Below are positions 6,624 to 24,854 of a DNA stretch of 64,000 bases, one piece after another. Origin of the DNA: Terriglobia bacterium (lineage in GTDB: Bacteria; Acidobacteriota; Terriglobia; Terriglobales; Acidobacteriaceae); NCBI GenBank assembly GCA_020072645.1, contig JAIQGK010000019.1, forward strand, positions 1 to 64,000, given 5' to 3'. The stretch's first letter is position 1. Each line of letters begins with the position of its first letter. A program made the position numbers and the translations under genes. Below the pieces are notes generated by a model. The model did no database searches, had not been told where the DNA came from, and worked only from the letters and a program-made list of their open reading frames with translations.

Positions 6624-9332
6624 TCAGTGATGCGAATACGGTGACACGAGCGGCGCCACTTCCACCACGGTCATCATCCCGCGATCTTCATGCGCCAGGA
6701 TGTGACAGTGAATGACATACCATCCCGGATAATCGACAAAGCGGCTGCGCAGCTTGAAATAACCCTTGATCGTGATCTGCGTGCCATCACTCTTCTTTGC
6801 GGAAACGCCCGAAGGAATTGGAAAGACGTCCCACCAGATTCTGTGCGTGGCTGGCACTGTGGCGCGGCAAGGCTTCCACGTGGCAGGATTATCGGGATTC
6901 ACCAGGCACTGTCCCGGCTGAAGCGGAGCGCTGCTATTGGTGGAAACGACGTACATCGGCGTCTTTCCATCTGCCAGCGGCGCGTTCGGGGCGAAGACCT
7001 CCGTGACCTGGAATGGATTGATATGAATGTGGAATGGATGCGAAATGAAGGTTGAGTTGTTCGTGACCGTCCACTCTTCAACATTATTTAAGAGCACGGC
7101 CACACCAACCTCACCGCTGAACTGTTTACCGTTGATGCTGTGGACCGCTGCCGGCGACTTGGGCGGAGGTCCGTTGTTGAACTGCTGCGGAATCGTGCCG
7201 AAGTCGATGACCTGCGTTCCCCTAACTTCGTTGTCAGTTATATCGTTCAGGTCGGGAGGAAAGGTCTTGGCTGGCGAGGCGTCAGGGAATGGCATGTTGA
7301 CCGGCGTGCCCGCCACCTTGATCGTCGCCAGGGCAATGTTGAATGGTCCACGGTTCGGCGGATTGGGCTCAAGATCGCTCGGATCAACCGTGTTGTGGAC
7401 CTGCAGAGGATACGTACATCCGCCCGGCGTTGTGCACGGTTTGGCCTGCACCAGCAGATCAATACGGTTGCCTCCGGCCAGGATGAACCCTTTGTTGCTG
7501 CTATTCGCGTAGTTGTCAGTGTAGAGTTGGACGCCATCGATGGCTAGCGTCTTCCAGTTCACTCCTTGCGGAGCGAGGAAGAGAACACCGGCGCGGCTTG
7601 AGGCATTAAGGATGCGCCACATCTGCACCTCGCCAGGCTTCATGCTGATGATCGGATTCGTGCGGCCATTCAAAGAAAAGTCCGGCCCCTTGTCCTGTCC
7701 TGCCCCGCCCTTGAGGTTAGGCGAAGTGCCAAACTGGTCGATGACGAGCACCGGCTGGGTGCGCGTCCATTCTTTTGCGTAGGCCTTGTAGACTTCATTG
7801 ATTTCGTCGTCGTACTGGCCTTCAATGATGAACGCGCCGGCGAATCCGTTGGCCACGTCGATGGTGGTGGAGCCGTGCTTATGCGCATGATACCAGTGCG
7901 TACCCGGCGATTGCCCCATTTTCAGTGGTCCACCTTGTTCGGTGACGGAGAGGGCCTCGATCCCCTGGTGCGCTTCCATTTCTCTCATACCCGCGCCTCC
8001 CTTGGCCGGCGGCGTAGGAACCACCTCGGGAAACTTCGGCAGCCTGAAGCAGTATGGAAAGCTGCCGATGTAGTACTGCGGCCAATCCTTGCGATCGAGC
8101 GATGCCTGGTTGACAGGCCAGAGCTTGTTGCCGATTTCCGGTTGCTGGTCGAACCTCTGCAGAAGTTCCTTTTGCATGTCAGTGTACGCTTTTGGGAGAT
8201 CGTCCCAGGTCACCGGCCATTCCACATGCGATCCCTTGGACAGCTCCGCCTCGCACTTGGTGAAAAACTCATCGAAATTTGGCGGCTGGGGCGGCGCAGG
8301 ATTGCCGGTGAGTCGCTTGGAGGAGAGTACCTGCAGAAAAACATTGTCTCCTGTGGAGTTGGGATTGGTGTGAGTGCCATGGAAGTGGAAATTCGCCGTG
8401 GTTGAGCCGTGAAAGCAGTTCGGAAAGTTGTCGTTGCCAGGATATCCCGCTGAGGTGCTTTCGCAAGCATTTCTATCGCCGGAGTCGATCGACTGGCCGA
8501 ACTTCGACGGGTCGATCTCGTTCAGAAAGGTCAGCTCAATGAAATCGCCGACACGCGCCCGCAACGTGGGTCCGAGCATCGGATCGGCGAGGCCTTTCGT
8601 AGGCGGCGGGAATGGCGTGGTGGTGTTCGGGCTTCGAAAGGTACGAACCCATTCGGGGAAGCAGGCCTGGAAGTTCTGCGGGTCGCCGGGCTGGGAAGCC
8701 TGTGTCTTCGGTGGCTGCTTGCTCGGATCAACCACGTATGTCAGCGGATAGCGCATCGGCATGCGGACCTGCTCGGTTCCCGCGATCAGTGTTGCCCGTA
8801 GCCTGCCATCCTTGGAAACGATCTCCGGAATCCTGACCAGTGGCTGCTGCGGTGGTAAACACGGAATCTGGCTGGTGCTTGGGGGCGCATTTTGTCCGGC
8901 TCCCGGCGTCTTCTGTCCCTGCCCTTGTCCCTGGCCGTGGCCCGGCGTCTTTTGTGCGTGCGCCGGAACGGCCAACCATCCACTCAGCCAGAGCACAATG
9001 AACAAAAGGGCAAGCGGCGGCATGGGAACCACGGCCTGAATGATGATCTTTCCAATCTCTCCTTTGTGCTTGGTGCAGTGATATGTGAGCGTGCCAGTCT
9101 GAGACGGTGCAACGTAGTCGGTCTTCGACGTGAGAGAAGGCAGAATTTCATTCGAGGTGTAGCTGCCATCGTCTAAAGCAACCTGGTGCGTGTCATTGGT
9201 ATGGTTGCTCCAGGAGACGATCGAACTGGGGGGAGCGTTCAGCGGATCTCCTGGTTTAGAGCCAGGCAGATCGGGCTGAAACGCCGCTACACCACTGCTG
9301 CCGGGGACGATCTTGATGGAAAAATCAGGCAT
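6624..9332 (-). CDS. multicopper oxidase with extra N-terminal cupredoxin domain
   Basis: A 902-residue copper oxidase that should oxidise a substrate and reduce O2 to water. All four copper-binding segments are present: HFHGTH (316-321), HWYHAHKHG (479-487), HPFHIHINPF (765-774) and HCHILAHEDRGMM (875-887), the last carrying the type-1 Cys. Residues 1-100 form a small plastocyanin-like domain with His49, Cys86 and His89, but without an obvious Met ligand. Residues 104-126 then look exactly like a signal peptide (MPPLALLFIVLWLSGW..., cleavage after AHA). A Gly/Gln-rich linker follows before the oxidase. The start at 9332 has AGGAG before it, whereas the internal Met104 does not, so one long product is favoured. 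It is the last gene of a seven-gene operon, 14 bases after the cytidine deaminase stop. The topology, with a cupredoxin before a membrane segment, is odd. Confidence 0.9.
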   Translation of the reverse strand: MPDFSIKIVPGSSGVAAFQPDLPGSKPGDPLNAPPSSIVSWSNHTNDTHQVALDDGSYTSNEILPSLTSKTDYVAPSQTGTLTYHCTKHKGEIGKIIIQAVVPMPPLALLFIVLWLSGWLAVPAHAQKTPGHGQGQGQGQKTPGAGQNAPPSTSQIPCLPPQQPLVRIPEIVSKDGRLRATLIAGTEQVRMPMRYPLTYVVDPSKQPPKTQASQPGDPQNFQACFPEWVRTFRSPNTTTPFPPPTKGLADPMLGPTLRARVGDFIELTFLNEIDPSKFGQSIDSGDRNACESTSAGYPGNDNFPNCFHGSTTANFHFHGTHTNPNSTGDNVFLQVLSSKRLTGNPAPPQPPNFDEFFTKCEAELSKGSHVEWPVTWDDLPKAYTDMQKELLQRFDQQPEIGNKLWPVNQASLDRKDWPQYYIGSFPYCFRLPKFPEVVPTPPAKGGAGMREMEAHQGIEALSVTEQGGPLKMGQSPGTHWYHAHKHGSTTIDVANGFAGAFIIEGQYDDEINEVYKAYAKEWTRTQPVLVIDQFGTSPNLKGGAGQDKGPDFSLNGRTNPIISMKPGEVQMWRILNASSRAGVLFLAPQGVNWKTLAIDGVQLYTDNYANSSNKGFILAGGNRIDLLVQAKPCTTPGGCTYPLQVHNTVDPSDLEPNPPNRGPFNIALATIKVAGTPVNMPFPDASPAKTFPPDLNDITDNEVRGTQVIDFGTIPQQFNNGPPPKSPAAVHSINGKQFSGEVGVAVLLNNVEEWTVTNNSTFISHPFHIHINPFQVTEVFAPNAPLADGKTPMYVVSTNSSAPLQPGQCLVNPDNPATWKPCRATVPATHRIWWDVFPIPSGVSAKKSDGTQITIKGYFKLRSRFVDYPGWYVIHCHILAHEDRGMMTVVEVAPLVSPYSHH

Positions 9333-10198: not shown

Positions 10199-10944
10199 CC
10201 GACGAATGCCTCCGGACGCAGGAAGCCGGCGAACCGCTTGAGTACCGATGTGGTCATATAAGGATGCATCGTAGATCCCGGAACAGTCTGCACGAACAAG
10301 TCACCGTGCGCTTTAAGAAACTCCTGGTACACCGGCTCCTTGGTGTGGGCAACGAAAGCGTCGTGGTCCTTCCATGCAGAGTTGTAAGTCACCGCGTCAA
10401 GTTGCATCGGCGGGATAGCGGGGGAATCCGGCGACTCATCGGCAAAGCTCACCGTATACATGTATGTACCCGGCTCTATCTCCTTCACTGCTTTGACATA
10501 GTCAACCAGCGCCGCCGCTACTTTTTTCCGGTTGCCCGGCTTCATTACCCAGCGCGCCTCCACCTGGAACACATTGGGGTCCACCTGCTGGGGACGAATG
10601 AATCCAACTGCCAGTTCGAGCGCCTGTACGATGACGAACGGCGAAGTTGGTCCGTACATGTTCAGAAAAAGGCTGCCGTATTTGGCGATGAACTTCTTCA
10701 GGTTCGGCCCGCTGTTGTGGGCCATGAATGCTTTGCGGTCCTTATAGCCTTCAACGAACGCCACCTGTACCGGCGCGGGCGGCGGAAAGATATTGATGCC
10801 CGGATCAAAGTTCGGCGTGTGGATCAGATAGAGCCATGTGTCCGGCTCGGAGCGCTCAATTTGCGCTGCGAGTTCGCCGAGCGCTGCATACGCCTTCGGC
10901 TCATTGCCGGGCACGATTGACCAAAAAGCATTGATGAGATACAT
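10195..10944 (-). CDS. tandem ABM/dimeric alpha-beta barrel protein
   Basis: A 249-residue protein from the ATG at 10944, chosen for GAAAGGATC seven bases upstream. It appears to hold two copies of a ferredoxin-like alpha/beta domain (about 1-110 and 125-245). Both have the pattern typical of antibiotic-biosynthesis-monooxygenase or EthD-like proteins: an opening strand, a helix with PGTYMY/PDTWLY, then KDHDAFVAHTKEP..QEF or KDRKAFMAHNSGPNLKKF. Members are often cofactor-free oxygenases acting on quinol-like or aromatic compounds. That role is inferred, as no single catalytic residue is diagnostic. It lies 13 bases after the GMC gene and overlaps cdd by 4 bases. Confidence 0.65.
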   Translation of the reverse strand: MYLINAFWSIVPGNEPKAYAALGELAAQIERSEPDTWLYLIHTPNFDPGINIFPPPAPVQVAFVEGYKDRKAFMAHNSGPNLKKFIAKYGSLFLNMYGPTSPFVIVQALELAVGFIRPQQVDPNVFQVEARWVMKPGNRKKVAAALVDYVKAVKEIEPGTYMYTVSFADESPDSPAIPPMQLDAVTYNSAWKDHDAFVAHTKEPVYQEFLKAHGDLFVQTVPGSTMHPYMTTSVLKRFAGFLRPEAFVG

Positions 10945-10957
10945 GACGATCCTTTCT

Positions 10958-12937
10958 TCAGGAACCGAGAGCGGCAAGGATGCTTCGCGCCGATTTAAAT
11001 GCCAGACCCATCAGAGTCAGCGTGGGATTTGCAGTGCAGACGGTCGGGAAACTGCCGCTCCCGACGATCCACATGTTCTGCACATCATGCGAGCGCTGAC
11101 TCGCGTCAACGACCGAGGAACTCGGATCGACGCCCATGCGGTGTGTCCCCACTACGTGGCCCGCGCCATAGTAGTGGTAGTTCACGCCCTGATATGTGAA
11201 GTCGCCTGCGCCCCCCACTCCGTTTATGGTGAACTCCGTCGCGCCCATCCGCTCGTAGACTTTTGAGCAGACGTAGGAGGCCATGCGGAAGCCTTCCATC
11301 GTGTACGGGTCTAAACCATACTCGACCTTCGGCCGCGGGAGGCCAAGACCGTCAACGTTGTTCGGCTTGCCGGTCGCCTTGTCGACATCGAGCGTGACGC
11401 GGTTCTCGGCGAGAGGCGATTGATCGAACATGCAGGCGATGCGGAACTGGCGAGTAAAAATGTTGTTGAGTTGCTGCACCAGCTTCAGGCCCCCAAGGCG
11501 AACCGGCTGGCCGCTCCCTCCCGGAGGAGGGTTAACGTTCGAATTGTTTGTTCCCTGGATGAAGTCCATCGTCGTCGTGTAGGGATCGCCCTTCGAGAAG
11601 TTCCATCCCTCGTTGCCGATTTCCATGCGAAACGACGCCCGGTATTTGCGAAACTCGCCGTCGCGAAGCGATTCGATGCCCGAAGTGGCTAGCGGGCCGC
11701 GATAGCCGAAGATCGGTTGCGGAGCGAGGGCCCAGGTCAGGTAGAGCGGGTGATCCATAAGATTGCGGCCCACCTGGTCACTGCTGTTAGCGACGCCCTT
11801 TTGGTTGTTCGACAGCAGAAGCAGCTTCGCGTTTTCAATGGCGTGGCAGGCCAAGACGTAAAGCTTTCCAGTGACAGACTTGGAGACCTTGGTCAGGTTG
11901 CCCTTGTCATCGCGCGACCACTGGTAGTAGTCAACGCGCGTTGCGTTCTTGCCTTCGACCGCGACGTTGTACGCCACTGACTGATAGCTCACCGTCACCT
12001 TGCCGGTGTCGAGGGCCTTGCCGAGTGTGACGGTCGGATCCCACTTCGCCTGAATGGGACAGATGGGGATGCAGTTGGTGTTGCCGGCGCAAACGCGGCG
12101 ATCGTCGTACGGCTCGGAGTTGCGGCCTTGCGGTGTCGGCGAGACGAAGACGTCATACAGCGTCGGGTCCGAGCCGCCGGGCGTGTTCGGTAGCGTGCCC
12201 GGTACCTGGAGACCCGCCACGGCGCTGCTGACGGCCTGATCGACCAGGCTCATTGGGATCGCCTGCATGGGGTACTGATAGCCCGGCGGATAATTCAGGC
12301 CGACGACTTCCAGCGGCTCCTGCTGAGCCACGCTGGCAGCGACGCCGATCTCTTTTTCCGCCAGCCCCCACAGCTCCTGCAACTCGGTATAGTCGAGCGG
12401 CCAGTCGCGGCCGTGGCCGTACTTCGTCTCCAGGCGGATGTCATTTTCCAACTCGCGCAGCGACGTGCCGAGCCAATGCCAAGATGTTCCGCCGCCGTTG
12501 CGTTCATAGGTGCTTGAGAACTGGAGACCGCGCACGTCGCCGGTTTTTGGGTCTGCCGGCGGGTTTTGCGGATTGGGATCGTTCTTATGGAGCTCGGTGA
12601 ACGGCTCCTGCTGCACCAGATAGCTGACATCGGGGGCCTTGCCGATGGACAGCACCGTTGCGCGCGGCGTGGGCAGAGTTGCCGGATTGGGCAGCTCGCC
12701 GACGGGATTGAACTTCGAGCCTTGGCGTCCGGCGAGCGCAGGGTACGGCGATTCGGGCGTCTTAGCCAGTGCGAGGTAGAAATTCTCCATGTACTCCTCG
12801 CGGCTGTCAGGAACGGCCAGCCCGGCTTCAAGAATCAACACTTTCTTGCCGGCCCGGCCGAGTTCCTTGGCGATGAGATTACCGGAGACGCCAGCGCCGA
12901 GGATGACCACGTCATATTGCGGAGTAGTTGGGCTCAT
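10958..12937 (-). CDS. GMC-family FAD-dependent oxidoreductase (dehydrogenase large subunit)
   Basis: A flavoprotein of about 659 residues in the glucose-methanol-choline family. I chose the ATG at 12937 because it overlaps the upstream stop (ATGA) and is followed at once by the FAD-binding Rossmann strand (VVILGAGVSGN, about residues 9-19, then LILEAG). The C-terminal GMC signature is present (GAGHVVGTHRMG and a SFPTVCTANPTLTLMGLA-type segment). A Cys cluster, CAGNTNCIPICPIQ (about 283-296), matches the cysteines conserved in membrane-bound gluconate/sorbitol/FAD-glucose dehydrogenases, some of which carry an Fe-S centre. With the small subunit before it and a cytochrome c before that, the natural reading is a three-subunit dye- or cytochrome-linked sugar or alcohol dehydrogenase. 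The substrate is unknown. Confidence 0.88.
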   Translation of the reverse strand: MSPTTPQYDVVILGAGVSGNLIAKELGRAGKKVLILEAGLAVPDSREEYMENFYLALAKTPESPYPALAGRQGSKFNPVGELPNPATLPTPRATVLSIGKAPDVSYLVQQEPFTELHKNDPNPQNPPADPKTGDVRGLQFSSTYERNGGGTSWHWLGTSLRELENDIRLETKYGHGRDWPLDYTELQELWGLAEKEIGVAASVAQQEPLEVVGLNYPPGYQYPMQAIPMSLVDQAVSSAVAGLQVPGTLPNTPGGSDPTLYDVFVSPTPQGRNSEPYDDRRVCAGNTNCIPICPIQAKWDPTVTLGKALDTGKVTVSYQSVAYNVAVEGKNATRVDYYQWSRDDKGNLTKVSKSVTGKLYVLACHAIENAKLLLLSNNQKGVANSSDQVGRNLMDHPLYLTWALAPQPIFGYRGPLATSGIESLRDGEFRKYRASFRMEIGNEGWNFSKGDPYTTTMDFIQGTNNSNVNPPPGGSGQPVRLGGLKLVQQLNNIFTRQFRIACMFDQSPLAENRVTLDVDKATGKPNNVDGLGLPRPKVEYGLDPYTMEGFRMASYVCSKVYERMGATEFTINGVGGAGDFTYQGVNYHYYGAGHVVGTHRMGVDPSSSVVDASQRSHDVQNMWIVGSGSFPTVCTANPTLTLMGLAFKSARSILAALGS

Positions 12938-13470
12938 TGTCCACCACCGTTGCCGGTGTTCACCCCGAAACTGGACAGTGATCCGGGCTGCTGGCTCCAG
13001 TAGCCAAAAGTGAAAGCGCTGTACCCCATGGGGTGCGACTGCATGACGCGCCAGACTAAACCATTGGTGTAGGCGACCGAAGAGATGACTTGCAGCGGCG
13101 GTGGCGCGAATCCGCCTCCGCCCAACACGCCCGGTACATACCACGAGCCGAGATACCACATGGCGACGATGCTTTGGGCGAGTTGCGCCTGCGCCGATGG
13201 CGAGGAGCCGCTCGTTTCAAGCAGCGTATCGGCGATCTGCTGTGCCGGTTTCGTCTTGATGGCGCGATAGGCGTTGAGGAGCGACGTCATTGCCGCTTGA
13301 CCCACTTGCGCGACGGCGAAGACGTAATACTCACGCGCCAGGCCGAGCGGATCGAGTGCCGGCTTGAGGACGCTTGATTGGAAGCCGGTCAGCGCCGCCG
13401 ACATGTCGGCAAAGTCCTGAATCTCGGAGTCGGGGATCGGTGGGGGTGATGGTATTGTTCGACGGGTCAT
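12934..13470 (-). CDS. sorbitol/FAD-dehydrogenase small subunit-like protein
   Basis: A 178-residue protein resembling the small (hitch-hiker) subunit of membrane-bound FAD sorbitol or glucose dehydrogenases (FAD-SLDH family). The clue is the AQSIVAMWYLGSWYVP segment at about 100-115 and the C-terminal NGLVWRVMQSHPMGYSAFTFGYW region, together with its place just before a GMC large subunit, which it overlaps by 4 bases. Family members usually bring the large subunit through the Tat system. Here the N-terminus is Pro-rich and has no twin-Arg plus hydrophobic stretch, so export of the complex is not obvious. Confidence 0.7.
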   Translation of the reverse strand: MTRRTIPSPPPIPDSEIQDFADMSAALTGFQSSVLKPALDPLGLAREYYVFAVAQVGQAAMTSLLNAYRAIKTKPAQQIADTLLETSGSSPSAQAQLAQSIVAMWYLGSWYVPGVLGGGGFAPPPLQVISSVAYTNGLVWRVMQSHPMGYSAFTFGYWSQQPGSLSSFGVNTGNGGGQ

Positions 13471-13487
13471 GGTTTCAGCCTTTCTCT

Positions 13488-14828
13488 CTACTGGGCGCGT
13501 TGCAGGACGTAGGTGAAGTCGCTGGGCACCGGCACGGTCATGGTGGCGTTGTTATGGCACTCGATGCAGTTCGACGAGACGTTCGGCACCGTCCCCTGGA
13601 TATAGGTCTCAAGGGTTGTGTTGGCGAGGAACGTTGGGGCTGGCGCGCCGAACGGCTGCTTCGGGTCGGTGGGCCACATGGTGCTGATCAGTTCATAGTT
13701 CTGCCAGACAGATTTCGGATTCACGCCCTTCAACTGCTTCTGTGCGTCGACATTGCGGGTGGCCGCGCTGGCTGCATAGATGGGAAAATTGAACTGGTTC
13801 ATCCGCACTATCTGGCTGTGGAATGTGCTGACCATCGTCGGCTTCCACGGACGCGGCGGAACCTGATTCATCTTGCAGGCTTTGCACTTCGGATTGTAGT
13901 AGTTGTAACTCGCCTTGAGCTTGCCGCTCTTGACCTCGGCATCGGTCGGCACATTGTCCACGTGCTCGAAAGTCGACCAGAGCCACTGCGGCGCGGCCTG
14001 CGTCTTGTGGCCGATGTGCATGCCGACCAGCCCCGCCGTCTGGATCGTGCACCGCGCCGGGTATTTGGGATTTTCCGATGCTGGCGTGTAAACCAGCACC
14101 TTCTCGGAATGGAAGCGGGCCTTATCGGCAGGGGAGATCATCTTCCACGCGGTCTTGACCATGATGGCTCCTTCGACCAGCGTCTTTCCCGTGCTGTCGA
14201 TTGAGCCCGACGTGAAATTGACCGGTGGCGTGAAAGCCTTCTGCCCCGCCTTCGAGTAGAGCGAATTGGACAGGATGTAGTCGAACATCGTCTTGTTGAC
14301 GAGGATCTGGAAGCGTGTGAAGACGCCGTGCTGGTCGATGATCGGGCCGGTGTTGAACGGCTGGCTGTTCGCCGAGACCACCGAGGGCGTCAGCAGGTTC
14401 TTGCCGATCTGCATGAGCATGACTACTGGCAGGTTCCCTTTGTTGACCGACTTGCAGGCGTCAGGGATGTTCACCGAGCCGTTCCATGTCGGCCGCGCAC
14501 CCCCCGGAAGGAAGACATCGCTCACGTCGCGGTAATGCTCCCACACGGTGTCATTGTCGCCATTGCTGCCGATGGTCTTCTTGGGATCGCCATTGCCGTC
14601 CGGTCCGGGCGGCCAGTTCAGGGCGATAAAGGTATTCCATGAGTAGACGTCAAAGTCAGGCTGGAAGGCATCGATCGAAACGGTTTTGGCCGTGACATTA
14701 ACGTCGCCGGGAATAGCTGGGCTGAGTACGATTGGCGGTGGTGGCGTCGGCGACGCCCCCTGCGGTCCAGCATGTAACAGCAACGCTGCGGTTAATAGCA
14801 GCGCCGCAACGAAAACGAGCTTCTTCAT
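13488..14828 (-). CDS. periplasmic c-type cytochrome-like protein
   Basis: A 446-residue exported protein with a clear signal peptide (residues 1-20, cleavage near LHA). A single haem-binding CxxCH motif (CIECH) lies near the C-terminus, in the segment SSNCIECHNNATM. A CKACK motif at about residue 320 could be a structural or metal site but lacks the His. The large region between has no recognised domain. It is placed directly before the dehydrogenase small and large subunits (17-base gap), so it is probably the electron acceptor subunit passing electrons from the GMC flavoprotein. It is much larger than, and different from, the usual three-haem cytochrome of such complexes. Confidence 0.7.
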   Translation of the reverse strand: MKKLVFVAALLLTAALLLHAGPQGASPTPPPPIVLSPAIPGDVNVTAKTVSIDAFQPDFDVYSWNTFIALNWPPGPDGNGDPKKTIGSNGDNDTVWEHYRDVSDVFLPGGARPTWNGSVNIPDACKSVNKGNLPVVMLMQIGKNLLTPSVVSANSQPFNTGPIIDQHGVFTRFQILVNKTMFDYILSNSLYSKAGQKAFTPPVNFTSGSIDSTGKTLVEGAIMVKTAWKMISPADKARFHSEKVLVYTPASENPKYPARCTIQTAGLVGMHIGHKTQAAPQWLWSTFEHVDNVPTDAEVKSGKLKASYNYYNPKCKACKMNQVPPRPWKPTMVSTFHSQIVRMNQFNFPIYAASAATRNVDAQKQLKGVNPKSVWQNYELISTMWPTDPKQPFGAPAPTFLANTTLETYIQGTVPNVSSNCIECHNNATMTVPVPSDFTYVLQRAQ

Positions 14829-14845
14829 GGCTCCTCCGGCTTGGC

Positions 14846-16294
14846 TTAAGCGATGAATGTTTGAAATAGCGGAGCGAAATTACCGGGCGTGGGCTCGAAC
14901 GGCGAGCCGATCGCCTGCTGGAAGGTAAAACGATTGTTGGGATCCCATTGCTTCTTGATCCGAACCAACTCGTTGTAGTTGCCGCCGTAATACTCTTGCT
15001 TCCAGTTGGTGAGCAGCGGATCGATGTAGTTGACGTAGGCCCCGGTGTCATGCGGCTTCATTGCTTCGCCCAACGCATAACCCCACTGAACGTTCTGTCC
15101 TAACTGGTCGTCGTTCGCCCAGATAGACTTTACTTCCCACAGGAAGCGGGCTTTGCGGTGCCAGAATGACGTGCCATCCGGTTTCACCTGCTCGATCTTG
15201 CCTCCCATGTGCGTCCACACCAGAAAGCTGTTGGGTGACGGAGCGCTCGCCATGGATTCAGTCAACGTGGTAATGGCTGCCGGCGTGAAGGCTTTAGGAG
15301 GCATGAAACCCGAGCGGATATAAGCTTGTTTTCCCCCAACGTTGGTCAATAAGCCGTTGAATATCTCGAAGTCGGGCAGCGTCATGTCGTAAAGGCTGAT
15401 GAAGATATTGGGAAATTTCAGGATCGGCGCGATCAGGTCCATCCCCTCACGTGTGTCGCCGTTGAAGATTGGCGTAAGGCCAATTGAGTTGACGAGAGTA
15501 TCGGGATGCGCCGGAAGCGCCACCTTTCCCATGTAACCGTACACCGCCAACTTGTCGGGAACGGTCTCTATCCACTCGTTGTAAAAGCCGTAAACTTCCT
15601 GCGCCGCCTCTGCCGGATAGCGGATTTGGCCCACCAGCATTGTCTTTGTCAAAGGCTTGTGCACGCGCAGCTCAAAAGCCACGGCGATCCCAAAGTTTCC
15701 GCCGCCGCCGCCACGGCACGCCCACCAGAGATCGCGGTCTTCCTTCGATTTGGAATCGGCGGAGATTCTGCGCAATTGGTAGTCTGGGGTAACAAGGTCA
15801 ATGGAAACCAGGTTGTCGACGCTCAGGCCGTAAGAGCGGGAAACGAAGCTCAGTCCGCCGCCGAGCATAAAACCGGGAATGCCAACCGTGGGGCAACCGC
15901 CCCCGATCGGAATAAATCCAGTATTGCTGCTTTGCAAATAGATGTAGATGTCACGCCAGCGGTTCCCAGTCTCCGCCCAACAGACCTGCCGACCAGCGTC
16001 GAAACGCTTGGCCTTCATGTTGGTGAGATCAATGACCAGCCCACCCTGGTTCAGGCAGTAACCGGCTGCACTGTGCCCGCCGCCGCGTACGGTGAAAGGC
16101 ATCTCATGTTCGACCGCAAATTTATAGGATGTAATGACGTCCTGCGCGTTCGCGCACATTGCAACGGCGCCGGGACGAAGATCAATACGGCCGTTGTCAA
16201 TGACTAGTGACTGGTCGTAACCGGGATCGCCCGCTTGAAGTAATCTACCGGTGAGCTGACTGCGAAGCTTATCAATATCGTTCTTAGAGGTCAC
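14846..16294 (-). CDS. BBE-type bicovalent FAD oxidoreductase
   Basis: A berberine-bridge-enzyme-like flavin oxidase or dehydrogenase. From the GTG at 16294 it has 482 residues, the usual family length. Both covalent FAD attachment sites are present: His74 in RGGGHSAAGY and Cys134 in GGGCPTVGIPGF. The typical BBE C-terminus follows (AYVNYIDPLL...KKQWDPNNRF). The substrate is unknown; relatives oxidise sugars, alcohols or aromatic natural products. The open frame extends to ATGs at 16378 and 16414, but the palindrome at 16338-16360 lies inside that extension and the extra residues are not family-like, so I prefer the GTG although its ribosome binding site is weak. It is the first gene of the redox operon and has no visible signal peptide. 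Confidence 0.85.
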   Translation of the reverse strand: MTSKNDIDKLRSQLTGRLLQAGDPGYDQSLVIDNGRIDLRPGAVAMCANAQDVITSYKFAVEHEMPFTVRGGGHSAAGYCLNQGGLVIDLTNMKAKRFDAGRQVCWAETGNRWRDIYIYLQSSNTGFIPIGGGCPTVGIPGFMLGGGLSFVSRSYGLSVDNLVSIDLVTPDYQLRRISADSKSKEDRDLWWACRGGGGGNFGIAVAFELRVHKPLTKTMLVGQIRYPAEAAQEVYGFYNEWIETVPDKLAVYGYMGKVALPAHPDTLVNSIGLTPIFNGDTREGMDLIAPILKFPNIFISLYDMTLPDFEIFNGLLTNVGGKQAYIRSGFMPPKAFTPAAITTLTESMASAPSPNSFLVWTHMGGKIEQVKPDGTSFWHRKARFLWEVKSIWANDDQLGQNVQWGYALGEAMKPHDTGAYVNYIDPLLTNWKQEYYGGNYNELVRIKKQWDPNNRFTFQQAIGSPFEPTPGNFAPLFQTFIA

Positions 16295-16337
16295 GTGCAG
16301 GTGAAGCCTAAATGACTTCTTGCGGCGCTGGCAAGTT

Positions 16338-16360
16338 ATTTTTGTACTTAGTACAAAAAT
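16338..16360. promoter_or_regulatory. perfect palindrome, probable operator of the redox operon
   Basis: ATTTTTGTAC-TTA-GTACAAAAAT: two exact 10-bp arms around a 3-base centre, within the space between the divergent genes at 16294 (-) and 16597 (+). The symmetry and length fit a dimeric repressor site of the TetR, MarR or HxlR kind. On the minus strand a TTGACC box near 16390 and an AATGAT-like box about 16 bases on could form a promoter, with the palindrome just after it. No regulator gene adjoins it in this window. Confidence 0.6.
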
Positions 16361-16596
16361 GATTGAGGGCCCGATCATTCGAAGTAAACAATCTCGGTCA
16401 ACTGCAAGCACCATTCTGTATTTTTGCGAAATGAGATGGCGAGAGGATGATCGCGCTACTTACTTGTGTGCATTGCATTGCTCACTAATTGAAAATTATT
16501 AGCAAAAATAAAGCTGCCCGATGTAAGTCTGGCCTTGCAATGTTGCCTTTACTGATTTATCCATTGCCAGGACTATTCATTCGTTAGAGGCACAAA

Positions 16597-17468: not shown

Positions 17469-19343
17469 TTGGAACGTGCATCCGCAAAACCACAACAGCC
17501 GTCTTCCGGCTCGCGAAAGAGCAGCGCATTTACGTTGCAGCATAAGCTTGCCGCGCTGCGTACTGTTCCGGGATTTCTTCGGATGGCCTGGGCCGCTCAT
17601 CACGGATACATGGCGGCTACGATTGTCCTGCGTCTTCTGCGCGCAGTGGTCCCAATCGCCACCCTTTGGGTGGCCAAATTGATTATTGACGCCGTTGTAT
17701 CCGCGCGCATGGGGCAGCCGAATGCATCGCGATTATGGATGCTGGTTGGAGTCGAACTGCTGATCGTAACTATTGGTGAAGCTTTGGACAAAGCTTCTAC
17801 AGCGGTAGAAGCGCTCTTTGGTGAACTCTGCTCGAATTATCTGAGCGAGTGCCTCATATCGCAGGCGGCGGCGCTCGATTTAAGCCATTTTGAAGACCCC
17901 GCTTTTTATGATCGCCTGGAGCGTGCGCAGCGGCAAACCACCGGACGCATTGGCCTGCTTACCCAACTCCTCTCCGTAGCCCAGGATTTATTGACTCTCA
18001 TCTCGTTAGCTGTGGCAGTCTTCGTTTACAGCCCATGGCTCTTGCTTCTATTGCTGATAGCGGTAATTCCCGGTTTCCTGAGTGAAACCCATTTCAGCGC
18101 GCTTGAGTATTCACTTTTTTATCGGATGACGCCGGAACGCCGGCAGCTGGATTATTTGCGGTCGCTCAGCGCGGGAGACAAGACCGCAAAAGAGGTCCAG
18201 ATATTTGGGTTGGCGCCATGGTTGCTTGGCCGTTATCGAAAGCTGGCTACGCACCTGCATCTAGCAAATCGGAATCTGGCTATCCGCAAAGGGATGGCCG
18301 CGGTCATGTTCTCACTGCTGGGAATTGCCGGATATTATGCCGGATATGTATTGATTCTGTGGCGTGGCTTTTATGGCTTTATTACGATCGGAACGCTCAC
18401 ATTTCTTGCTGCATCTTTTGCGCGTAGTCGCACCACGACGGAGAGAGCCTTGCTTGCAGTCGGCAACATCTACGAACAAGGTCTTTATATGCGTGACCTG
18501 TTTGCGTTTCTTGAGATGAAGCCCACGATTGTTTCTGTTATCGGGGCGCCCTCTGTTCCAACACAACTTAAGCAGGGATTGTTCTTTGAAAATGTCGGGT
18601 TTCAATATCCATTGAGCGACAACTGGGCCGTGCGCGGCATCAGCCTGCATATCGCGCCCGGAGAAAAGATTGCCCTGGTTGGAGAAAATGGAGCGGGTAA
18701 GACTACACTTGCCAAGCTGGTCGCTCGTCTTTATGACCCTACTGAAGGGCGCATTCTGCTGGATGGAATTGACCTCCGCGAATACGACCTTGAATCAGTG
18801 AGACACGCTGTTGGAATCATTTTTCAGGATTTCGTTCAGTACGATATGCGTCTTGATGAAAATATCGGCGTGGGAGAGATTAACTCAGTCCTGAAGGAAA
18901 TCGATGGTGAACAGACAGCCCCGGCGATTATGGAAGCGGCAAAAAAATCACAAGCCGATTCCTTGGCCCTGGGCCTTCCTCTCGGATATAAGCAGATGCT
19001 GGGGCGGCGTTTTGAAAATGGAATTGAACTCTCGGGCGGAGAGTGGCAGAAAATCGGACTGGCGCGCGCTTACATGCGTCAGGCCCAGATCATTATTCTG
19101 GACGAGCCTACTGCCGCCCTGGATGCACGCGCTGAATATGAGACCTTCACGCGATTCGCTGATTTGGTTTCAGGACAGATAGCATTGCTTATCTCGCATC
19201 GCTTCTCAACTGTGCGCATGGCTGACCGTATTGTCGTTCTTCAGAAGGGAACAATTCTGGAACAAGGAACGCATACTGAACTGTTGTCGCAGAACGGGCT
19301 TTATGCAGAATTGTTTCGGTTACAAGCGGAGGGGTACCGTTGA
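17469..19343 (+). CDS. ABC exporter, fused permease and ATPase (peptide-type)
   Basis: A 624-residue half-transporter with a six-helix membrane domain (about 40-330) fused to an ATPase. Walker A GENGAGKT (405-412), Q-loop Gln453, signature LSGGEWQK (521-528), Walker B IIILDEP (541-547) and H-loop His577 are all intact. The linker LFAFLEMKPTI after the last helix and the LSGGEWQK signature are like those of NisT/SpaT-type lantibiotic and related peptide exporters, so a peptide or small-molecule export role is the best guess. There is no N-terminal C39 peptidase domain. The start is TTG at 17469, because an in-frame stop lies just upstream and no ATG comes before residue 39. It heads a four-gene operon and overlaps the methyltransferase gene by 4 bases. 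Confidence 0.88.
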   Translation: MERASAKPQQPSSGSRKSSAFTLQHKLAALRTVPGFLRMAWAAHHGYMAATIVLRLLRAVVPIATLWVAKLIIDAVVSARMGQPNASRLWMLVGVELLIVTIGEALDKASTAVEALFGELCSNYLSECLISQAAALDLSHFEDPAFYDRLERAQRQTTGRIGLLTQLLSVAQDLLTLISLAVAVFVYSPWLLLLLLIAVIPGFLSETHFSALEYSLFYRMTPERRQLDYLRSLSAGDKTAKEVQIFGLAPWLLGRYRKLATHLHLANRNLAIRKGMAAVMFSLLGIAGYYAGYVLILWRGFYGFITIGTLTFLAASFARSRTTTERALLAVGNIYEQGLYMRDLFAFLEMKPTIVSVIGAPSVPTQLKQGLFFENVGFQYPLSDNWAVRGISLHIAPGEKIALVGENGAGKTTLAKLVARLYDPTEGRILLDGIDLREYDLESVRHAVGIIFQDFVQYDMRLDENIGVGEINSVLKEIDGEQTAPAIMEAAKKSQADSLALGLPLGYKQMLGRRFENGIELSGGEWQKIGLARAYMRQAQIIILDEPTAALDARAEYETFTRFADLVSGQIALLISHRFSTVRMADRIVVLQKGTILEQGTHTELLSQNGLYAELFRLQAEGYR

Positions 19344-20113
19344 ACGAAACGGCTTCAGCCTTCGATGCCGGCGCTTCCAGTTTTGAGAGATTCCGCGCCC
19401 TGCCTGATGGTGTGCCGGAAGCTATCCGCTCAACAATTTACGACACAGTCCATGTTCCATCGCCGGCTAGAGTACTGGATCTTGGCGCTGGAACGGGACG
19501 GATTGGAAGAATATTTGCGCAAGCTGGTGACTTATATTGCGGCTTGGATGCCTCTCTCGGGATGCTGCAAGAGTTTCGGCGCAATGCAAAGAATAGTTTT
19601 CTTGTTCAGGCAAACGGAGAGCAGTTGCCGTTCCGGGACCATGCTTTTGATGTTGTGCTCCTGATGCATGTGTTAGGCGGTACCAGAGATTTCCAGGCAG
19701 TGATTCAAGAAGCGCGCCGGGTCTGTAATTCGGATGGTGCTATTGTAGTTGGTCGCACAGCTAGCCCTGAATCCGGCATTGATGCTCAGCTAAAAAGACA
19801 GTTGAAGTTAATATTGGAACAGATGGGTGTTGTTTGGCATCGACCGCAAGAGTCATATCGCAAATCGCTGGCGTCTCTGGAAGCAATCAGCAGGCGCCGT
19901 ATTCACATGAGCGCGATCTCGTGGAATGTAACCGCAACCGCACGCGATTTTTTGCTACGACATCAAACAGGAGCGCGATTTGCAACTTTGCCAACCGCCA
20001 CTCAAGAGCGCGCCCTTGAACGATTGACCACGTATACAGTAAGTAACTTTGGCGCTTTGGATAAAACCTTTGAAGAGCAACGTAGCTTTGAACTGGACAT
20101 TTTTGTGTTTTGA
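19340..20113 (+). CDS. class I SAM-dependent methyltransferase
   Basis: A 257-residue protein with the methyltransferase Rossmann core. Motif I is VLDLGAGTGR (45-54), the acidic residue at the end of strand 2 lies in CGLDASLGML, and the region DHAFDVVLLMHVL is a motif-III-like strand. It belongs to the Methyltransf_11/25 type, whose substrates are mostly small molecules. The start is TTG in a TTGA overlap with the ABC gene stop, which indicates translational coupling. The substrate is unknown. Its position between an exporter and two MoSto-like genes suggests that it modifies the product or ligand handled by the operon. Confidence 0.85.
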   Translation: MNETASAFDAGASSFERFRALPDGVPEAIRSTIYDTVHVPSPARVLDLGAGTGRIGRIFAQAGDLYCGLDASLGMLQEFRRNAKNSFLVQANGEQLPFRDHAFDVVLLMHVLGGTRDFQAVIQEARRVCNSDGAIVVGRTASPESGIDAQLKRQLKLILEQMGVVWHRPQESYRKSLASLEAISRRRIHMSAISWNVTATARDFLLRHQTGARFATLPTATQERALERLTTYTVSNFGALDKTFEEQRSFELDIFVF

Positions 20114-20139
20114 TTTTAAAAAAGCGACGCAGAGAAAAT

Positions 20140-20973
20140 ATGGACGATAAGAACGCGATTCTTCCCGGACTGGGAAAGCAGCTCATCCTCAATTCCTTGA
20201 CAGACGCATCAGTGCAACGAGCCACCGAAGAAACCCCCGATTTCGCAATCTTGCCATGGGTCAATGTGGTCAAAATAGGTGGTCAGAGCATCATGGATCG
20301 CGGACGCGCCGCGGTTTATCCGCTCGTGAAGGAAATTGTAGACAATCTTGACCGGCACAAAATGATTCTTGGAACGGGGGCCGGAACGCGAGCGCGCCAT
20401 ATTTACAGCCTGGCCATCGATCTGGGGCTTCCAACCGGAGTGCTAACCGTGTTGGGCACCGCGGTTGCGTGGCAGAACGCTCAAATGCTCCATTATCTCC
20501 TGGCCCAATATGGCATTCCTTTCGTTGAGCCTGAAGGCTTCAGCACCCTGCCTCACTACTTGATGGAACGAGGTGCGGTTGTTTGCCAGGGAATGCCGCC
20601 TTACAAATTGTGGGAGCCAAATCCCGAGACTGGCCGAATACCGCCGCAGCGCACTGATACTGGTTGCTTTCTGGTTGCTGAGGTCTTTGGCGCTCGAAAG
20701 ATGATTTATGTGAAAGACGAAGATGGCCTTTATTCAGCGGACCCTAAGAAACATCCCTCTTCTGAATACATCCCTCGCATTAGCGTTGAAGAACTGCTGG
20801 CGCGAGACCTGGAAGACTTGATTGTGGAACGGGCCGTGTTGGAGTTCATGGTCCGAGCACGGAATATTCACGAAATCCAATTCATTAATGGCCTGAAGCC
20901 AGGTCAACTCACTGCGGCACTCAATGGCGAACCTGTAGGAACCATTATTTACAAAGACAGAGGTACAAAGTGA
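20140..20973 (+). CDS. molybdenum storage protein subunit-like amino acid kinase (first paralogue)
   Basis: A 277-residue amino-acid-kinase-fold protein. From memory of the Azotobacter vinelandii MosA/MosB sequences it matches them closely along the whole length: VVKIGGQSIMDRGRAAVYPL (42-61), GTGAGTRARH (78-87), GMPPYKLW (151-158), RTDTGCFLVAE (171-181), VKDEDGLYS (191-199) and the ending with INGLKPGQLTAAL. MoSto binds ATP and packs polyoxomolybdate or tungstate clusters inside a heterohexamer. Lys45, the phosphate-contacting Lys of the fold, is kept here. The ATG at 20140 is chosen (GAGA upstream); a TTG at 20110 in the same frame would overlap the methyltransferase stop. The next gene is its paralogue, so the two probably form a hetero-oligomer. 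A metal-storage role is inferred from similarity only. Confidence 0.8.
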   Translation: MDDKNAILPGLGKQLILNSLTDASVQRATEETPDFAILPWVNVVKIGGQSIMDRGRAAVYPLVKEIVDNLDRHKMILGTGAGTRARHIYSLAIDLGLPTGVLTVLGTAVAWQNAQMLHYLLAQYGIPFVEPEGFSTLPHYLMERGAVVCQGMPPYKLWEPNPETGRIPPQRTDTGCFLVAEVFGARKMIYVKDEDGLYSADPKKHPSSEYIPRISVEELLARDLEDLIVERAVLEFMVRARNIHEIQFINGLKPGQLTAALNGEPVGTIIYKDRGTK

Positions 20974-21788
20974 GCTTCGACCACTCTAAGTCACAACATG
21001 TCACTTCAAGCTTGATGCGTGAGTCATTGGTGGATAAAGACGTGATCGCCAGAACAGAAGCTCCGGTCACTTCCATTTTGCCGGATGTGAACGTAATCCA
21101 GATAGGCGGGCATTCGATCATGGATAGAGGACGATCAGCGCTGCTCCCGCTGTTGGACGAGATCATAGCGAATCAGGCCCAGCACAGAATGATCATTGGA
21201 GTAGGTGCTGGTGTACGTTCACGGCATATCTTTTCAGTGGGCCTTGATCTGGGACTGCCCACCGGCGCTTTGGCTGCTCTTAGCGCCAAAGATTCGGCGC
21301 AAAACGCTTACATGGTCTCATGTTTATTGGCAAAACACGGATTCGTATATCTGGAGGCTCCCTTTGTAGTCCAGCTGCTGCCTGCGATGCTGGCTGCTGC
21401 GCGCGGCGCTGTTTTCAACGGAATTCCTCCGTATTCTTTATGGGAGCATCCGCCGCATTTGGGAAAACTCCCGCCCCATGGAAGTGACGCGGGATCATAT
21501 TTGATCGGCGAAGTTTTCGGGGTCCGGAATGTGATCTTTTTAAAAGATGTTGATGGCTTGTATTCGGACGATCCGAAAGTTGATCCCGCCGCGGAGTTTA
21601 TTCCTCAAGCAAAGGCACAGGAAATAATTGACAAGAAGTTCCGCACACTTCCAATTGAGCCAGTCGTACTTGAGTTGTTGACGCGAGCAAAATTGGCGCG
21701 TAGCGTCCGTATCATCAATGGCCTGGTTCCGGGTAATCTCACACGCGCTTTGAAAGGTGAAGCAGTCGGCACCTTAGTTCAAAAATGA
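20970..21788 (+). CDS. molybdenum storage protein subunit-like amino acid kinase (second paralogue)
   Basis: A 272-residue paralogue of the preceding gene, with the same fold and landmarks: VIQIGGHSIMDRGRSALLPL (42-61), GVGAGVRSRH, GIPPYSLWEHPP, SDAGSYLIGE, FLKDVDGLYSDDP and INGLVPGNLTRALKGE. Where the first paralogue has Lys in KIGGQS, this one has Gln44 (QIGGHS), so nucleotide or phosphate contact may have been lost or changed. The two genes could be catalytic and structural partners, as in the alpha/beta MoSto of Azotobacter. It starts at GTG in a GTGA overlap with the first gene and ends the operon. No nitrogenase, molybdate transport or molybdopterin gene is nearby. Confidence 0.8.
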   Translation: MSFDHSKSQHVTSSLMRESLVDKDVIARTEAPVTSILPDVNVIQIGGHSIMDRGRSALLPLLDEIIANQAQHRMIIGVGAGVRSRHIFSVGLDLGLPTGALAALSAKDSAQNAYMVSCLLAKHGFVYLEAPFVVQLLPAMLAAARGAVFNGIPPYSLWEHPPHLGKLPPHGSDAGSYLIGEVFGVRNVIFLKDVDGLYSDDPKVDPAAEFIPQAKAQEIIDKKFRTLPIEPVVLELLTRAKLARSVRIINGLVPGNLTRALKGEAVGTLVQK

Positions 21789-22033: not shown

Positions 22034-22073
22034 AGGATTTGAACCTCCGACCCCCTGGTCCCGAACCAGGTGC
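22034..22073 (-). tRNA. 3' fragment of tRNA-Pro (CGG), probable attachment-site remnant
   Basis: On the minus strand the sequence runs from the start of the anticodon stem through a TTCGGGA loop (anticodon CGG), the variable loop and the T arm (GGTTCAAATCC). The acceptor 3' strand is not tRNA-like and there is no 5' half, D arm or CCA. It cannot be a working tRNA. Such 3' pieces are left when tyrosine recombinases integrate into tRNA genes, and a broken integrase lies about 1.5 kb away. An intact tRNA-Pro (CGG) is not in the window. Confidence 0.65.
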
Positions 22074-23276: not shown

Positions 23277-23325
23277 TTAAGACGCCGAAGACTCAGAAGT
23301 GGATGTTGAGTCTGGGAGGAAAACA

Positions 23326-23553
23326 ATGGACCAGAGCGCACACGGACATCCAGAACCTTACGTCAGCCCGGAAGAGGCGGCGGCATTCTTGAAAATAAAT
23401 CGCCTGAAGATCATTCGCATGGCGCGTTCCGGTTCGGTGCCGGCGCATCCGCTTGGGGCCGGAAAGAGAAGGCAGTGGCGATTCAAACTTTCAGAGCTTG
23501 ATAAGCACATGCAGGGTGGTATAGAAACAACGCACCCGCCCGTGCGCCAATGA
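23326..23553 (+). CDS. excisionase-family DNA-binding protein
   Basis: A 75-residue MerR-like/HTH_17 protein of the excisionase family. YVSPEEAAAFLKINRLKIIRMARSG.VPAHPLG..KRRQWRFKLSELDKHM shows the winged helix-turn-helix, with the terminal WRF..SELD. Such proteins direct excision or regulate small mobile elements together with a tyrosine recombinase. The ATG at 23326 is preceded by GGAGG. It lies 11 bases before the integrase start, so the two formed one transcript. Unlike the integrase, this gene is intact. Confidence 0.8.
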   Translation: MDQSAHGHPEPYVSPEEAAAFLKINRLKIIRMARSGSVPAHPLGAGKRRQWRFKLSELDKHMQGGIETTHPPVRQ

Positions 23554-23564
23554 AGGGAATGTAA

Positions 23565-24711
23565 ATGGCGCAACGGTATCAAGACGGGCATCTCAGAAGA
23601 GCGAAGCGCAAGCGCGGAGCTGACGTGTGGGAGTTTCTATGGCGAGAATGCGGGCCGAATGGCAAGCGGCGACAGAGAACTCTCACAGTAGGCAGCGTGG
23701 ACGAGCTTCGCACTGAAAGGGAAGCCCTAAACAGAATCCAGCTCTTGCGAACGAACATTAACCGTGATCTTCCAAGATCGGCACTGATGACGTTCGAGGA
23801 TCTGGTCAATCACTACCGCCAAACGGAATTGCTGGCGGACAACAAAACCGAGAAGACCAGGAGCACATACTTGGTCTATCTCAAAAACTGGATCCTTCCG
23901 ACCTGGGGCAAAGAGTACCTGCACAGCATTAAGCCGGTAACAGTCGAGCATTGGCTCAGGAATCTGGGAGGACTCAGCAACGGAAGCAAGTGCAAAGTCA
24001 TAAACATTATGTCAGGAATCTTCAGTCACGCAATCCGGTATGAATTCGCAGATCGAAACCCAATCACTGCGGTCCGGCAATCTGGCAAGCGCGAAAACGT
24101 TCGGTTCTACTCGAGATAGCGGAACTGCATCGTCTGTTCGATGAGTTGGAACTTCGGGAACGGGCGATGATTGTTTGCGACGCGCTGACAGGGATGCGAA
24201 GAAGCGAACTGATGGGGTTGCAATGGTGCGATCTGGACTTCTTTGAGATGCTGCATCAATATCGTCCGATCCGTGGTCGACCAGGTAGTCGGTAGTTGCA
24301 AAACGGAGGCATCGCGCAAACCCGTTGTCATGGATGAGCACATTGCGCAAGCGCTCATGGCATGGCGGCAGGAAAGCACGTACACAGCTTCCACCGTTGG
24401 GTTTGGGTTCACTACAGAAGAAGGGTCGGCAGCCGCTGTGGCTTGCCACAGTGATGCGCTACTACATCCAGCCGGCAGCACAACGGGCCGGCATTGACAA
24501 GAAAATCGGCTGGCACACCTTACGGCATACGTTCTCGACTCTGATCAAGTCGCTGGGCGTAGACGCGAAGGTTGTTCAGGAACTCCTGCGGCATGCATCT
24601 TTCAAAACAACGATGGACGGCTACACGCAGGCTTTGGAAGCACCGAAACGCCAAGCACAGGCAGCTTTGGCGGACCTGATCATGCGCACGGGTAAGGTTG
24701 GAAACGCATGA
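23565..24711 (+). pseudogene. tyrosine recombinase (phage-type integrase), frameshifted
   Basis: A site-specific integrase broken into three reading frames. The first frame (23565-24119) has the SAM-like core-binding domain (TFEDLVNHYRQTELL...). A second frame continues from about 24098 to 24291 and carries the first catalytic Arg segment TGMRRSELMGLQW. A third frame near 24243-24345 reads SVVDQVVGSCKTEASRKPVV, a normal continuation. The frame ending at 24711 then carries HTLRHTFSTL and LLRHASFKTTMDGYTQ, with the catalytic His/Arg, His and the Tyr nucleophile. At least three frameshifts separate the pieces. All catalytic residues are still legible, so the decay looks recent, unless the shifts are sequencing errors. 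Confidence 0.85.
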
Positions 24712-24776: not shown

Positions 24777-24854
24777 TGGCGTCCCCGACGGGATTTGAAC
24801 CCGTGTTACCGCCGTGAAAGGGCGATGTCCTAGGCCGGGCTAGACGACGGGGAC
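24777..24854 (-). tRNA. tRNA-Glu (TTC)
   Basis: Complete cloverleaf on the minus strand. The acceptor stem is GTCCCCG/CGGGGAC, the D arm includes TCTAGCCCGGCCTAGGA, the anticodon loop CTTTCAC gives anticodon TTC, and the T arm is ACGGG-TTCAAAT-CCCGT. The discriminator is G and CCA is encoded. It lies 66 bases after the broken integrase. Confidence 0.95.

Follow-up and report, generated by a model that had tools for sequence, protein, structure and literature searches.

What do two genes resembling the subunits of the molybdenum storage protein (MoSto) do in an acidobacterium, where they share an operon with an exporter and a methyltransferase? We address this question for a 64,000-nucleotide stretch of DNA, hereafter the window, from a Terriglobia bacterium (contig JAIQGK010000019.1, positions 1 to 64,000). 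In it, an ATP-binding cassette (ABC) exporter, an S-adenosylmethionine (SAM)-dependent methyltransferase and the two paralogues, here called Mos1 and Mos2, follow one another on the same strand (Table 1). MoSto, built from MosA (alpha) and MosB (beta) subunits, has so far been treated as a curiosity of a nitrogen fixer. The initial annotation of this locus asked whether the fold has been put to another use or the genes make up a metal-handling unit of a new type, and our analysis upholds that choice. The window pair is MosAB-like in outline and belongs to a sister branch with conserved new partners; it is not a canonical MoSto. We propose, at about an even chance of being right, that Mos1 and Mos2 constitute an ATP-driven molybdate or tungstate store within a horizontally spread molybdenum-handling module.

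Both paralogues match the Pfam family AA_kinase, and the resemblance to MosA and MosB that had been noticed from the letters alone is borne out by solved structures. MoSto is the best solved match of each (Table 1), ahead of the best uridine monophosphate (UMP) kinase (1e-6 for Mos1, 1e-8 for Mos2) by more than 60 orders of magnitude, with UMP and isopentenyl phosphate kinases lying at E values of 1e-8 to 1e-3. The kinase models listed in NCBIfam score far under their own cut-offs for both paralogues. An ordinary UMP kinase is ruled out, since Mos1 reaches 56 and 31 bits on the pyrH models, whose curated cut-offs are 158 and 244. Mos1 and Mos2 share the amino-acid-kinase fold family with PyrH. 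Glutamate 5-kinases, which together with UMP kinases had been named as the ordinary identity to be feared, have no model among the NCBIfam matches listed for the paralogues, and the genome holds a separate PyrH-like gene, recognized by eye. In a tree of 90 rows built by a quick method, Mos1 groups with MosB with Shimodaira-Hasegawa-like approximate likelihood ratio test (SH-aLRT) supports of 88 and 91, neither above 95, and the Mos2 of locus L036 also falls on that side. The likeness extends to architecture: Azotobacter vinelandii MosAB (PDB 2OGX/4F6T) likewise consists of two paralogous amino-acid-kinase subunits, and the Azospirillum plasmids NC_013859.1 and NZ_CP059454.1 carry MosB-like and MosA-like genes in tandem.

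In a set of 61 genomes, made up of the window's own plus 60 relatives, four contain the pair at E values up to 1e-30, and all four belong to the window's genus (4 of its 9 members). Among 396 genomes drawn from the phylum, seven have a match. A tblastn search (E up to 1e-3) of one genome per species, covering 84,980 species, returned 456 stretches, not genomes, encoding a relative. The best 80 of these were kept, so that branch proportions lean towards the window; 79 of the 80 could be assigned, across 11 phyla. After removal of four duplicate stretches (L038, L039, L041 and L102), 86 loci were compared, of which 38 have a flank under 5 kb and 48 have at least 5 kb on both sides. Clade W comprises the window and 22 further loci from Acidobacteriota, Alphaproteobacteria and Isosphaeraceae, with one labelled Solirubrobacterales and one Gammaproteobacteria; the broad clade holds 60 loci, and L035, L036 and L037 stand apart.

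The four window genes form one operon, and we re-found both their coordinates and the junctions read earlier: a 4-base TTGA overlap between exporter and methyltransferase (19340) and a 4-base GTGA overlap between Mos1 and Mos2 (20970), the latter length recurring in all 22 clade-W loci listed, the window included. Between methyltransferase and Mos1 the genes are 26 bases apart if Mos1 starts at ATG 20140 and overlap if it starts at TTG 20110. The ATG, previously given with reserve, is the likelier start because the five nearest two-gene loci show gaps of 18-50 bases (L029, 23; L030, 18; L031, 18; L040, 50; L042, 31). At the nucleotide site, Mos1 retains both lysines, those of KIGG and KDEDG. 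In Mos2 the first is replaced by glutamine (QIGG) in 20 of 23 clade-W rows, among them the window, where this loss had already been seen, and is kept in 60/60 broad-clade rows; the second is lysine in 23/23 clade-W and 59/60 broad-clade rows, at a position where MosA has Glu190. Most of clade W and Azotobacter are therefore alike in having two lysines in one subunit and a single one in its partner, although the loss is at different sites.

Among the MosAB-like loci examined, no neighbour was found more often than the methyltransferase. Of the 81 loci whose flank reaches 1.3 kb or more, 56, from many phyla, encode it immediately before Mos1 and in the same orientation, and only one of its 59 matches in all flanks is elsewhere than about 1-2 kb upstream; these neighbour profiles were built from clusters in the same flanks and are thus tuned to them. 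By clade, it is found in 21/22 loci of clade W, always within 50 bases of the Mos gene, and in 36/58 of the broad clade. Alignment of the window-type with the broad-type methyltransferase profile reaches 100% probability across 260 columns, which is compatible with a single family, though many class I methyltransferases would give the same result; the nearest solved chain to the window protein is the hypothetical protein TTHA0223 (6.5e-16). Exporters recur too, within 3.5 kb in 21 of 83 loci, with two different kinds of membrane part: an MsbA-type exporter in 5/23 clade-W loci (the window, L029, L040, L042 and L051) and an ABC-2 exporter in 16/60 broad-clade loci. At the broad-clade locus L083, a window-type exporter is encoded on the opposite strand. 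The complete set of four genes, in unchanged order, is also carried by L029, L040 and L042, so the genes are co-conserved beyond the window. The view that the methyltransferase and exporter are unexpected company thus does not survive comparison: these partners are a feature of the relatives as well, not an oddity of this genome.

The same counts bear on the simplest alternative, an ordinary MosAB molybdenum store that has nothing to do with the methyltransferase, exporter and oxidase genes around it. These partners are indeed absent from the stretch seen around two Azospirillum pairs and around the L035 pair (the plasmid gene tables are incomplete), yet the methyltransferase keeps one place and strand in those 56 of 81 loci of many phyla, with the short clade-W gaps, and we regard this alternative as extremely improbable. 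Chance neighbourhood is ruled out by the neighbour counts across loci. The earlier remark that the neighbours differ from those expected of MoSto nevertheless holds for the diazotroph MosAB pairs that we looked at: many of the loci examined have a methyltransferase neighbour, an exporter and an oxidase, unlike Azotobacter MosAB, and no methyltransferase, ABC exporter or multicopper oxidase is annotated in the stretches shown of the Azospirillum plasmids, whose gene tables are incomplete.

The exporter had been read as a peptide-type, NisT-like transporter, a reading that we reject. Its closest solved structures are ABCB4/ABCB1 and then MsbA; in Pfam it matches ABC_tran alone (8e-34), with no membrane-domain family above threshold and no peptidase domain. 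It resembles MsbA/ABCB half-transporters in being a single-chain membrane-plus-ATPase protein, but it lies below every curated cut-off among the 25 NCBIfam models listed, the best being MsbA_lipidA (250.9 bits against 602). Peptide-export models are far under cut-off (TIGR01193, 140.8 bits against 523.85), and an operon exporting a peptide, a ribosomally synthesized and post-translationally modified peptide or a bacteriocin is thereby ruled out. The L029 counterpart is 80% identical.

Molybdate-importer genes connect the pair to molybdenum. In 38 of 86 loci, profiles of ModA, ModB or fused ModBC find a match no farther than 9.5 kb away; in the broad clade, importer profiles match in 36 of 60 loci (L086 weakly). 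The best score is at least 100 bits in 36 of the 38, and ModA reaches at least 200 bits in 26; L055 and L086 are weak. These are profile matches, and the check with curated models, made in three loci (L032, L036 and L040), confirmed ModA in all three. Importer and methyltransferase occur together in 26/60 broad-clade loci. At L040, whose importer escaped the profile count and came to light with curated models (ModA 173.7 bits, cut-off 62.5; ModB 244.3, cut-off 182.6), ModA, ModB, a cupredoxin-like gene, an oxidase, the exporter, the methyltransferase and both Mos genes lie within about 9.5 kb; its Mos1 is 84% identical to that of the window, and the contig, labelled Gammaproteobacteria, is possibly misbinned. 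Because importer genes neighbour so many relatives, the link to molybdenum is stronger than the initial annotation saw.

A further recurrent neighbour, which that annotation had not picked out, is a multicopper oxidase. Oxidase profiles match within 9.5 kb in 39 of 86 loci, one of them weakly (L100, a 92-residue fragment that scores 33 bits and lies where the contig ends); among the 48 loci flanked by 5 kb or more on each side, 24 have an importer and 24 an oxidase. An oxidase of the window's profile group is found in 19/23 clade-W loci, at distances of up to 13 kb on the upstream and 9.5 kb on the downstream side; in the broad clade, 21/60 loci have oxidases of two other groups. In 14 clade-W loci the oxidase lies upstream and in line, and in 12 of these it stops no more than about 125 bases short of the next gene or slightly overlaps it; at L043 and L047 the overlap is about 500 bases, because a long methyltransferase start was chosen. 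All 17 clade-W-type oxidases longer than 650 residues loosely match the four copper-ligand motifs. The window's own oxidase is 38% identical to L031_768 over 824 aligned positions and is thus kin of the operon-adjacent oxidase of other loci. By eye, its frame has a plastocyanin-like start without a signal peptide, followed by an internal stretch resembling one; L029-L031 and L040 have a cupredoxin-like gene apart from that of the oxidase, with no signal peptide evident by eye.

The genome itself (6.4 Mb, 99% complete) offers a setting for molybdenum handling and hints at the operon's arrival. The earlier statement that no molybdate transporter is near is right for this stretch and incomplete for the genome, in which WtpA-like, ModB/WtpB-like and ModC-like genes lie adjacent to one another away from the window. 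Because MoeA, five MoCoBD_1 matches and these importer-like genes are present, uptake and use of molybdenum or tungsten are plausible without nitrogenase. Nine carriers, of which eight are Alphaproteobacteria or Isosphaeraceae and the ninth, L042, is labelled Acidobacteriaceae, share 73-77% Mos1 identity with the window, whereas the window genome's UMP-kinase-like protein, the one protein used for comparison, is 46-61% identical in the same nine; this excess in Mos1 identity suggests horizontal transfer of the operon. Mobile-element traces flank it (Table 1). The partial tRNA-Pro(CGG) copy, at which no tRNA was called, matches the genome at seven other places, of which two are at full tRNA-Pro genes, and the integrase pieces lie near a tRNA-Glu (24777-24854).

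Table 1 Features of the operon and its surroundings in the window.
Feature	Position	Strand	Evidence
ABC exporter, MsbA/ABCB-like half-transporter (membrane part plus ATPase)	17469..19343	+	Pfam ABC_tran; ABCB/MsbA solved matches
Class I SAM-dependent methyltransferase	19340..20113	+	Methyltransf_11 5e-19
Mos1, MosB-like subunit	20140..20973	+	2ogx_B (MoSto beta subunit) 5.6e-90; 57% identity to MosB
Mos2, second subunit	20970..21788	+	MosB 9e-70, MosA 4.5e-61
Multicopper oxidase, N-terminal cupredoxin-like stretch (by eye)	6624..9332	-	Cu-oxidase_2 6.6e-16
40-base partial tRNA-Pro(CGG) copy, probable attachment-site-like remnant flanking the operon	22034..22073	-	100% match to site on contig C17 with full tRNA-Pro(CGG)
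Helix-turn-helix protein and two separate tyrosine-integrase pieces, probable mobile-element remnant	23299..24711	+	HTH_17, Phage_int_SAM_3, Phage_integrase

On the reading that we favour, homology to MosAB predicts that Mos1 and Mos2 would form a mixed complex, an (alpha-beta)3 cage, in which ATP would be hydrolysed mainly in Mos1, the beta-type subunit. ATP use would load molybdate or tungstate, the cargo being held as an oxyanion cluster or adduct whose chemistry would be unlike that of Azotobacter, because two histidine ligands are gone. The complex may be the core of an accessory, horizontally moving module. The oxyanion would be supplied in many relatives by the ModABC-type importer encoded beside the pair and here perhaps by the distant WtpABC/ModABC-like genes. 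More speculatively, the methyltransferase and ABC exporter could be involved in producing or exporting a small ligand or by-product; the multicopper oxidase, if secreted, might oxidise extracellular ligands such as phenolic or catechol complexes of molybdenum, freeing the metal for uptake.

Several observations weigh against this proposal, foremost those at the cluster site. As described in PMC4504029, octamolybdate in MoSto is covalently bound via His156 and Glu129. The residue numbering fits an assignment of both to MosA. We take MosA His140 to be a further cluster ligand. At the corresponding positions window Mos2 retains Glu129 and has methionine at 140 and serine at 156; neither position is histidine in any of the 83 Mos2 rows that the two clades contribute, and Glu129, kept in 23/23 clade-W rows, is proline in 60/60 broad-clade rows. 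The known MoSto cluster sites are therefore absent. This count leaves aside L035 (His140 retained, asparagine at 156), L036 (histidine at 156, tryptophan at 140) and L037, which has a single Mos gene; 83 of the 86 loci thus fall in two branches that lack the one histidine as well as the other, and it is on this ground that we place Mos1/Mos2 in a sister branch. The Azospirillum plasmid MosA retains both His140 and His156, and Azotobacter MosA differs from Mos2 in these histidines, in Glu190, where Mos2 has lysine, and in the KIGG lysine that is glutamine in most clade-W rows. Conserved candidates for new cluster ligands are Mos1 Glu130 and Arg144 (counted from the 20140 start) and Mos2 His160, where MosA has phenylalanine. 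Mos2 is also nearer by identity to MosB (46%) than to MosA (41%), and in the tree the Mos2 clades and MosA stay outside the Mos1/MosB side without forming a single clade.

The missing histidines keep a small-molecule kinase as the main rival. Here the fold would be reused in a biosynthetic operon, whose product would undergo methylation, leave through the exporter and meet the multicopper oxidase outside, to be oxidised there. The retained nucleotide-site lysines of Mos1 are consistent with such an enzyme, the methyltransferase, exporter and oxidase suit a small-molecule pathway, and further oxidoreductase genes lie upstream in the window; we also know of no job for a methyltransferase or exporter in molybdenum storage, a point that counts against the store itself. 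The rival leaves unaccounted the importer genes that recur beside pair and methyltransferase together, is without a scaffold-forming biosynthetic gene in the list of the 35 commonest neighbour clusters, and sits poorly with kinase models so far under their cut-offs. We consider it unlikely, though deserving of attention.

The genomic context tells against the proposal as well. The upstream methyltransferase is missing in 25 of 81 loci, and the oxidase was not found within 9.5 kb in 47 of 86, some with short flanks. ModA has no match in the window's own genome, whose importer-like proteins score under every curated cut-off listed. The nifH model gives two matches of 22-30 bits there against a cut-off of 394 (other nif genes were not searched), and on that nifH result a nitrogenase-linked store in this genome is ruled out. 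The oxidase density speaks for the proposal, at 43 matches in about 1.26 Mb of loci against about 1 per Mb of background, but the loci are related by descent and so not independent, and the background is that of 31 genomes of the window's order only (124 Cu-oxidase_2 matches over about 125 Mb, which as a gene count is an upper bound). The window's own oxidase lies 8 kb off on the other strand in a genome with 15 Cu-oxidase_2 matches in 6.4 Mb, and since the genus is oxidase-rich, a single oxidase at that distance proves little alone.

Within clade W, clear molybdate-importer genes occur nearby in only 1 of 23 loci (L040; L055 is weak), a further point against the proposal, and the oxidase, in 19 of 23, is the more constant partner. 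Together with the cupredoxin-like genes that adjoin the oxidase in L029, L030, L031 and L040, this favours a complex that handles another metal or oxyanion, such as copper or vanadate, in step with the copper oxidase, the importer link being secondary. The importer profiles across the broad clade argue otherwise, and we know of no copper storage by amino-acid-kinase proteins; we judge such a cargo rather improbable, less so than none of the neighbours mattering but more so than a reused kinase.

A more radical variant would have the Mos1/Mos2 complex serve as an assembly chamber in which molybdenum or tungsten is built onto an organic ligand as a small metabolite, finished by the methyltransferase, secreted by the exporter and used or processed outside by the oxidase. 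We hold this to be very improbable; were it true, it would imply a diffusible bacterial molybdenum compound, a metal natural product of a new kind, of which we know no example. If, as we favour, the module instead stores and handles molybdenum, it would be a widespread, horizontally moving system of molybdenum and tungsten homeostasis, one that links molybdenum to copper oxidases and reaches a genome without nifH over the cut-off. In the open-licence literature we found nothing describing a methyltransferase or oxidase link to MoSto-like genes, and none joining molybdenum storage with a multicopper oxidase or a molybdenum storage protein with Acidobacteria.

Some loci carry other surroundings. 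Next to the operon, window positions 9347-16414 on the minus strand hold an oxidative cluster of cytidine-deaminase-like, ABM-domain, GMC oxidoreductase, FAD-SLDH-like and berberine-bridge-type oxidase genes and an unassigned 446-residue frame. Ten cyanobacterial loci (L073, L075, L079, L084, L086, L089, L092, L096, L098 and L101) have at least one of the conserved neighbour clusters C14, C16 and C26; one C14 and one C16 cyanobacterial protein searched against Pfam matched no family. In four Bradyrhizobium loci (L097, L103, L106 and L111), which are without the methyltransferase, molybdate-importer genes are followed by a frame of 645-747 residues and then by Mos1 and Mos2; the frame of this class in L111 is WD40-like by eye.

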